Position numbers and translations under genes: made by a program. A stretch of 64,000 nt of DNA from Bacteroidales bacterium (GTDB lineage: Bacteria; Bacteroidota; Bacteroidia; Bacteroidales; GCA-2748055). Positions 61,714 to 62,670 of the stretch are shown in pieces. The stretch lies in NCBI GenBank assembly GCA_023138875.1, contig JAGLOO010000004.1:62001-126000 (forward strand), read 5' to 3'. The notes beneath the pieces are model-generated. The model saw nothing but the letters and a program-made list of their open reading frames with translations. It was not told where the DNA came from and ran no database searches. Position 1 is the first letter of the stretch; the number at the start of each line of letters is the position of its first letter.

Positions 61714-61744
61714 AAAAAAAGGCCTCCGCCGAAGCGGAAGCCTT
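61714..61744 (-). terminator. trp attenuator terminator
   Basis: On the minus strand AAGGCTTCCGC pairs with GCGGAGGCCTT (one C-A mismatch) around a TTCG tetraloop (61744-61734 with 61729-61719), followed by a seven-base T-run (61720-61714). It ends 18 bases before the trpE start codon, so it would stop transcription ahead of the structural genes. CGGAGC at 61783-61778, near the leader stop codon, can pair with GCTTCCG of the 5' arm (61741-61735, one bulge) as an antiterminator. Confidence 0.85.
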
Positions 61745-61773
61745 AATATTGTATTGCACAATGAGCGGCTAAC

Positions 61774-61833
61774 CTATGCTCCGGTTTGTCGGGAATAGTG
61801 ATGCCACCACCAATTTGTGCGAATTTCTGTCAT
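61774..61833 (-). CDS. trpL: trp leader peptide (three consecutive Trp codons)
   Basis: A 19-codon frame, MTEIRTNWWWHHYSRQTGA, on the minus strand, stop TAG at 61776-61774. Three adjacent TGG codons occupy 61812-61804. Its stop lies 29 bases before the terminator stem. This is the layout of ribosome-mediated attenuation: a ribosome stalled at Trp codons for lack of charged tRNA(Trp) leaves the antiterminator segment free; a ribosome reaching the stop codon would cover it and the terminator forms. The sequence is too short for domain evidence, but the position and Trp run are very unlikely by chance. Confidence 0.9.
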   Translation of the reverse strand: MTEIRTNWWWHHYSRQTGA

Positions 61834-61853
61834 TTTGATCTCTTTCTTGAGGT

Positions 61854-61885
61854 CAAATTAAATGAAAGATTTCTATTAATCCAAA
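61854..61885 (-). promoter_or_regulatory. Putative trp operon promoter
   Basis: On the minus strand TTTG (61885-61882), a 20-base spacer and TTAATTTG (61861-61854) fit the Bacteroidota promoter with one mismatch in the -7 box. It is 20 bases before the leader peptide ATG. It lies in the divergent gap with the LspA-like gene. Confidence 0.45.
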
Positions 61886-61920
61886 TTTCATTAATTTCGC
61901 CCATCAAAATTCATCATTCT

Positions 61921-62670
61921 ATGGCCAAGAAGTATATTAGGAACCTCTCCATCTTTGTTTTGATCTGGCTGGCTGTAATGGTCATCTATTCTGTGGCCAG
62001 TAAGGTAACAGACCTGGATTACCTGTGGAAGTTCTTCCTGCTTCCTGCCATTTTCCTGGCTGCCATTGCTGCACTGGCGACAACACTGGAGTACCTTTTC
62101 AGGGTGAATAAAGGGATCAACTGGATCTTCCTGCTGGTGGTGGTGGGGATCGACCAGGGGATCAAAGCCTGGCTCTTCTCCCTGGACTGGGAGTCCATTT
62201 CCATTCCCCTCATCGAACCGGTATTCTATATTGAACCTACCCATAACACCCTGGGGTCCTATCTGTGGGTGTTGCTGGGATTGAAACAGGGATCCCATGT
62301 GTTAAACATCATCTTATTCAGCCTTATCGGGATTGTTTTCATCGAGGTATGGCGTTTTTACGTCCACAGGAAAAGAAACAGTTTCTGGATCAACGGATTT
62401 ATCCACCTATTCCTGGCAGGACTCGCAGCCAACCTGATCGACAATGCATTCTGGGGAGGATCACTGGATTATGTGACCATTAAGCCTTTTTACACCTTTG
62501 ATCTGAAAGACCTCTACATTACCCTTTGTGAACTGTTCCTGATTACCGAACTCATCGACAACAGGCTGCTGAAACGTTTCCTGAGCATGCCCAAAGAGGA
62601 CAGCAAACGGTTAAACAGGGAGTTTTTCCAGTTTGTGAAACGTGATTTCCGGGTTGGCAAAAAAAACTAA
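61921..62670 (+). CDS. lspA: Divergent signal peptidase II (LspA) family protein
   Basis: 249 residues from ATG 61921, longer than the usual 150-170 because of about 65 extra N-terminal residues with two membrane helices. LspA motifs are recognisable but altered: DQGIKAW, HNTLGSYLW, NLIDN and TFDLKD, in which D174 and D197 match the catalytic aspartates; the usual GNxxDR Arg is Asn and FNxAD reads FDLKD. It probably removes lipoprotein signal peptides, but could be a paralogue with another role. Its stop interlocks with the next gene (CTAA). Confidence 0.75.
   Translation: MAKKYIRNLSIFVLIWLAVMVIYSVASKVTDLDYLWKFFLLPAIFLAAIAALATTLEYLFRVNKGINWIFLLVVVGIDQGIKAWLFSLDWESISIPLIEPVFYIEPTHNTLGSYLWVLLGLKQGSHVLNIILFSLIGIVFIEVWRFYVHRKRNSFWINGFIHLFLAGLAANLIDNAFWGGSLDYVTIKPFYTFDLKDLYITLCELFLITELIDNRLLKRFLSMPKEDSKRLNREFFQFVKRDFRVGKKN

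Follow-up and report, generated by a model that had tools for sequence, protein, structure and literature searches.

The window, a stretch of 64,000 nucleotides from a contig of a Bacteroidales bacterium, carries on its minus strand a tryptophan operon in the order trpEGDCFBA, preceded by a short leader ORF. The trpE gene, for anthranilate synthase component I, spans 61696-60275 and has its best family match in TIGR00564 (E 4.5e-127, below the curated cut-off), with its start at ATG 61696 or 61693, and the rest of the operon (trpG, trpD, trpC, trpF, trpB and trpA) occupies 60285-55287. As the earlier note on this DNA had observed, the trpE translation contains LLES (within SLLLESSD), which we take to be the feedback site. 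The leader peptide ORF, MTEIRTNWWWHHYSRQTGA (61833-61774), runs for 19 codons from ATG 61833 to the stop codon TAG at 61776-61774, and includes three tandem TGG (Trp) codons at 61812-61804 that are the putative sensor and are invariant in an alignment of 17 family sequences; length, Trp run and stop codon are as first described. A promoter-like sequence is predicted upstream at 61885-61854, with TTTG at 61885-61882, a spacing of 20 nt and TTAATTTG at 61861-61854, and has one mismatch to the −33/−7 promoter consensus of Bacteroidota. Relatives of the same genus carry a T-rich ATTTTG or AATTTG block at the equivalent position. On the plus strand, the divergent gene at 61786-62670 is LspA-like, with an NCBIfam match below its cut-off, and its likely start is an ATG near 61921, so both promoters would share the short gap down to 61833.

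Between the leader and trpE lies a predicted intrinsic terminator (61744-61714, minus strand, −19.7 kcal/mol), with an 11-bp stem formed by 61744-61734 and 61729-61719, a TTCG loop at 61733-61730 and a run of seven T residues at 61720-61714. It is positioned 68 nt past the first Trp codon. The order of hairpin, T run and trpE agrees with the earlier note, and trpE does follow closely, with a spacing of 17 nt rather than the 18 given there; the leader stop codon is 77 nt from the trpE ATG. Upstream, a predicted 1:2 hairpin (61820-61756) holds the Trp codons and pairs with strand 2a, CCGGAGC (61784-61778); counted from the start of the first Trp codon, this strand begins 28 nt on. Strand 2a can also pair without a break with GCUUCGG (61735-61729), a segment that takes in the last two bases of the terminator 5′ arm, the whole loop and one base of the 3′ arm, its first. 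The earlier note had named CGGAGC (61783-61778) as the alternative partner of the 5′ arm; by eye, pairing with that arm requires a bulge. A possible second antiterminator helix involves strand 2b (61774-61767), where GG (61774-61773) and AGCC (61770-61767) have candidate partners in CC (61737-61736) and GGCU (61742-61739), although this helix is poorly kept in the family (64.1% of alignment cells paired). Folding of the 165-nt region 61860-61696, a check that the earlier note had suggested, gave −51 kcal/mol, whereas 200 shuffles averaged −35.3 (sd 4.0; z −3.9) and not one was as low.

To place the locus among its relatives, we collected 101 trp upstream regions, comprising 38 near-full-length TrpE matches among 61 relatives and 63 further regions from the order. 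The latter derive from 83 of 217 order genomes that match TrpE at E 1e-120, after removal of 19 already included and one partial match (G243); the remaining 134 genomes may be auxotrophs, have a divergent TrpE or contain assembly gaps. Four of the 101 regions (L008, L076, L078, L104) were shorter than 150 nt and were left out, giving 97 operon heads, 13 of which belong to the genus of the window. A leader was scored as a short ATG-start ORF containing WW and lying no more than 450 nt from the first gene, be it trpE or trpB. By this rule a WW leader stands at 91 of the 97 heads and a WWW leader at 75, compared with a mean of 1.0 (maximum 3) for WW and 0 for WWW in 30 rounds of dinucleotide shuffling of the same heads, and with no WW ORFs on their antisense strand. 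Of the six heads scored as lacking a leader, G017 carries a WWW leader whose GTG start the ATG rule overlooked; the other five lack a WW ORF under that rule. The WW leaders at the heads of trp operons are not due to chance, and a conserved Trp-rich leader upstream of trpE in related genomes, which the earlier note had looked to as a check, is borne out.

The arrangement around the leader is also retained. A T-tract hairpin occurs within 190 nt for 94 of 99 WW ORFs, at a median of 69 nt past the first Trp codon, and among the five for which the finder returned none, G050 has one by eye. In operons that begin with trpB, the Trp leader sits ahead of trpB and not of trpE; this part of the order includes G029, G037, G045, G049, G054, G056 and others. 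Beyond the order, the leader and hairpin are present in 22 of 23 loci titled Cytophagales, Flavobacteriales or their families or genera. The peptides are widely variable outside the W run. Translation initiation in Bacteroidota proceeds mostly without Shine-Dalgarno pairing. The window leader has no Shine-Dalgarno 4-mer, and such 4-mers precede 4 of 94 leaders, where composition alone predicts 7.8%.

If strand 2a and the terminator form an alternative helix, each leader should match its own terminator better than those of other leaders. We compared own and swapped pairings in 82 leaders, omitting 12 genus siblings, both for energies and for counts of unbroken runs. With a terminator segment made up of the 5′ arm, the loop and 3 nt, own pairing averaged −14.65 kcal/mol against −11.25 (sd 0.30) when swapped, and none of 5000 permutations was as low. 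For 70 of the 82 leaders the own terminator outdid the median of the swapped ones, but for only 29 was it in the best tenth. Unbroken runs of at least 7 pairs between leader positions +19 to +41 and the loop segment were found in 48/82 own combinations versus 26.5% of swapped ones. The test was also thinned to one leader per family (46 families), with the loop segment defined as the last 3 nt of the 5′ arm, the loop and the first 6 nt of the 3′ arm. Here leader positions +18 to +35 gave 6.67 versus 5.49 for swaps (z 7.5), and +24 to +41 gave 6.87 versus 5.69 (z 7.2), with 0/5000 for each. The signal spans several overlapping intervals, with z 3.0 (10/5000) for +30 to +47 and z 1.9 (213/5000) for +12 to +29, while the other eleven leader intervals had no excess against the loop segment. 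Pairing with the 5′ arm alone did not exceed swaps across the 46 families, a comparison of low power given that 5′ arms are alike. The 22 loci whose titles place them in other Bacteroidota orders, several being near relatives of each other, gave a longest run of 7.91 versus 6.15 (0/5000).

The letters of the paired strands differ between lineages, as in GCUAUGUUAAGC/GCUUAACAUAGC (G064), GACGUUGUG/CACAACGUC (G227), GUCGUGAG/CUCACGAC (G056) and CCGGAGC/GCUUCGG in the window, and the stop codon often lies inside the equivalent of strand 2a or a few nucleotides beyond it. Across families, the loop region of a terminator is matched by a strand of its own leader that lies about 26 nt downstream of the first Trp codon. 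The covarying part of the predicted antiterminator is this pairing with the terminator loop, and the best predicted duplex also uses the 5′ arm.

Within the family, the alignment of 17 sequences is informative for some helices. The terminator has 85.6% of cells paired, a value reached in 4 of 500 shuffles. The 1:2 hairpin has 82.1% of cells paired (1/500), with two-sided changes at 95/500 and pair types at 221/500; it is supported by the cells paired and not by the two-sided changes or pair types. The antiterminator had no covariation beyond shuffles in this alignment, with 76.4% of cells paired (114/500) and two-sided changes at 432/500, because the sequence hardly varies there. Within-family covariation was dropped as support for the antiterminator, and the claim is based on the cross-family swaps.

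Growing transcripts were folded in silico with 30 nt masked to represent the ribosome. In the window, when transcription has proceeded 3 nt past the loop, the predicted occupancy of the strand 2a-terminator helix is 1.00 with the ribosome on the first, second or third Trp codon, 0.00 with the ribosome at the stop codon and 0.51 with no ribosome. Three nucleotides later, the values are 0.64, 0.98 and 0.98 for the three stalled positions and 0.00 for both the stop codon and the ribosome-free transcript. Across the 94 leaders at 2 nt past the loop, the mean number of expected pairs is 11.6 with a stalled ribosome, 1.3 at the stop codon and 2.8 without a ribosome, and at least 5 expected leader-terminator pairs are predicted in 92, 8 and 21 of the 94, respectively. 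By 6 nt past the loop, at least 5 pairs are kept under stalling in only 79/94. Once the leader is complete, the terminator prevails in the window whatever the state of the ribosome. Under stalling it is ahead by 4.9 kcal/mol in the window; the average is 9.9, and Escherichia coli trpL comes to 10.2 by the same method. Since the terminator is the best full-length fold in all states, antitermination would have to be kinetic. Kinetic choice between folds is the textbook case for attenuation. In the comparison of terminator and antiterminator that the earlier note had proposed, the complete leader favours the terminator and the stalled growing transcripts favour the antiterminator. In this model, the dependence of folding on ribosome position is what classical attenuation demands.

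We consider it very probable, from the sequence comparisons and the folding model, that the element is a ribosome-mediated transcription attenuator of the trp operon, as the earlier note had read it. An ORF with regulatory codons precedes the operon, a terminator lies between the leader and the first gene, the putative antiterminator covaries across families, and the folding of growing transcripts depends in silico on ribosome position; these parts are conserved, in order and fold as expected. When charged tRNA-Trp is scarce, the ribosome would stall on the WWW codons, masking the 5′ side of the 1:2 hairpin and leaving strand 2a (61784-61778) free to capture 61735-61729 once this segment is transcribed. 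The resulting delay of the terminator would allow RNA polymerase to get to trpE. When Trp is plentiful, the ribosome would reach the stop codon (61776) and mask strand 2a, and the terminator would form. Should the leader be untranslated, about half of the predicted ensemble has strand 2a paired upstream, and the terminator would form anyway. We infer where transcription starts, that the leader is translated, that the element responds to Trp, that ribosome and polymerase are coupled and that the choice is kinetic.

Other explanations give the leader a lesser or different role. The stability of the full-length terminator in every state would also fit a terminator that is constitutive or controlled by a protein (TRAP-like) or by a T-box, with the WWW ORF being incidental. 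The recurrence of WW ORFs at nearly all heads and about one in shuffles speaks against an incidental ORF. TrpR and TRAP genes were each found in none of 8 genomes, that of the window included, while control genomes gave matches, and an Rfam scan of the window returned no family at its gathering score, T-box included. We regard this explanation as extremely improbable. Control could instead be translational, with translation of the leader chiefly permitting re-initiation at trpE. Leader genes near structural genes have been proposed to help in this way, and the spacing in Bacteroidetes has a peak at 11–14 bp (PMC4833913). The distance from the leader stop codon to trpE is far off that peak, and a T-tract terminator sits in between, making re-initiation as the main function very unlikely.

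The peptide itself could also act. It might be an arrest peptide, or work in trans in the manner reported for peTrpL of Sinorhizobium (PMC7298713), and some relatives do have a near-fixed IWLPWWGLL leader. The third codon positions of IWLPWWGLL are near-fixed too, pointing to RNA constraint or recent descent, and the variability of the leaders outside the W run argues against a conserved peptide function. An acting peptide seems to us a highly unlikely account of the element. A conserved arrest peptide IWLPWWGLL in the genomes with tandem leaders is left unproven because of those third codon positions.

Compared with E. coli trpL, the attenuator proposed here has the same elements, namely tandem Trp codons, a stop codon, an antiterminator and a terminator. 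The terminator lies 60 nt from the first Trp codon in trpL and 68 nt in the window, and trpL has two Trp codons, whereas the window has three and no Shine-Dalgarno sequence. The predicted partner in trpL lies upstream of the terminator and in the 5′ arm, with 0 loop pairs; if 6 nt of the 3′ arm are made available as well, 5 pairs fall there. The thr, leu, his, ilv and phe leaders of E. coli share the principle. By one method, loop pairs number 3 in the E. coli his and phe leaders, 1 in thr and leu, and 0 in trp and ilv, while the 94 Bacteroidota leaders have a mean of 3.85 loop pairs and 7.1 pairs in the 5′ arm. At least 3 loop pairs are predicted in 81 of the 94, compared with 2 of 6 in E. 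coli (his and phe). When the loop and 3′ arm are counted together, at least 4 pairs are predicted in 91/94 Bacteroidota leaders and 5/6 E. coli leaders, trp included. As these joint counts agree, we abandoned the idea that anchoring in the loop sets Bacteroidota sharply apart from E. coli. The difference is one of degree, and loop pairing is typical of Bacteroidota but known elsewhere.

A related element is already represented in Rfam as Bacteroid-trp (RF01692), which was reportedly described by Weinberg et al. in 2010. Like the window element, RF01692 is found upstream of trp genes in Bacteroidota and has Trp codons in a hairpin. The window gives a full-length collinear match to positions 1–131 of the model, with a score of 29.2 bits against a cut-off of 49 and an E value of 0.23 in a 401-base search, which is not significant alone. 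Matches above the cut-off overlay WWW leaders in L163, L166, L175 and L189. Among the 61 relatives, there were 4 matches at E 0.001 and 3 above the cut-off, with filters losing weak matches, and at 4/61 the model was rejected as a detector because it is too insensitive for counts. The model stops in the terminator 5′ arm and pairs the 1:2 hairpin only, whereas our analysis of the window adds the putative antiterminator. The window element reads as a divergent member of the described kind.

The earlier note had called such control little discussed in Bacteroidota; Trp attenuation there is already in print. RF01692 has been tabulated as a Bacteroidetes RNA with a probable cis-regulatory role (PMC2864571), Bacteroid-trp is tied to the Flavobacterium psychrophilum trp operon and Trp attenuation (PMC6414381), and clues for leader-peptide attenuation at amino-acid operons, with structured 5′ elements at pheA and hisG, are given for F. 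psychrophilum (PMC9723704). Small ORFs of Bacteroides thetaiotaomicron are also said to be reminiscent of leader peptides (PMC7366714). Among the titles and abstract openings examined, none describes pairing with the terminator loop, or Trp leaders in tandem, for Bacteroidota, and a 2010 survey of attenuation may cover Bacteroidetes. What is added here is the likely switching helix with its geometry, the tandem forms, and the his, ilv and phe leaders predicted in the same genome.

These further leaders precede hisG (MRFYSRHRVHHHHHHLSG, L195), ilvD (MTKSILHIILVVVVLVLIPGAT, L208) and pheA (MSYRSTVYYFYFFSSR, L223), with the runs HHHHHH, ILVVVVLVLI and YYFYFF, respectively, and a T-tract hairpin after each. 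Across 8 genomes, a leader ORF is present at hisG in 6 and at pheA in 8 (one with a GTG start); at ilvD it is present in 8/8 at one locus, and the second ilvD copy that two of the genomes carry lacks it. No Thr/Ile-rich leader ORF was found in the 6 thrA upstream regions examined (7 genomes have a match). In the ribosome model, all 8 phe leaders have fewer predicted pairs at the stop codon than when stalled, with two still keeping 3–4. The same is predicted for 6/6 ilv leaders for which a terminator was found, and in 5 of these stalling is close to the ribosome-free state. The his leaders are uneven: that of the window's own genome (L195) fits, L198 fits partly, L191 and L193 behave in the opposite way, L196 and L197 hardly differ between states, and L192 and L194 could not be located for the model.

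We see an even chance that trp across Bacteroidota, along with his, ilv and phe in this lineage, is under leader-peptide attenuators, with the trp elements sharing one geometry. A strand lying about 26 nt past the first sensor codon, which a stalled ribosome just fails to reach and a ribosome at the stop codon covers, would capture the terminator loop before the 3′ arm is made, and some lineages would stack two such gates in tandem. If true, this would imply tight transcription-translation coupling across the phylum. Leader attenuation requires a ribosome closely behind the polymerase, and trp, his, ilv and phe leaders that lack Shine-Dalgarno sequences and have a defined switching helix would lend themselves as reporters of whether, and how, the two processes are coupled in Bacteroidota. 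Judging from the survey, the public Rfam model seems to catch only a small part of such elements.

Tandem WW leaders, each with its own terminator, are found upstream of trpE in L021, L041, L059, L062, L084 and L093. A script counted 7 of 97 heads, and as L024 is doubtful, the number is about 6. Further tandem WW ORFs occur in Prolixibacteraceae-type loci. An upstream leader with a near-fixed IWLPWWGL-like peptide, 314–572 nt before trpE and with third codon positions near-fixed too, is seen in L041, L125, L135-L138, L140, L142, L144, L145, L147, L148 and L154.
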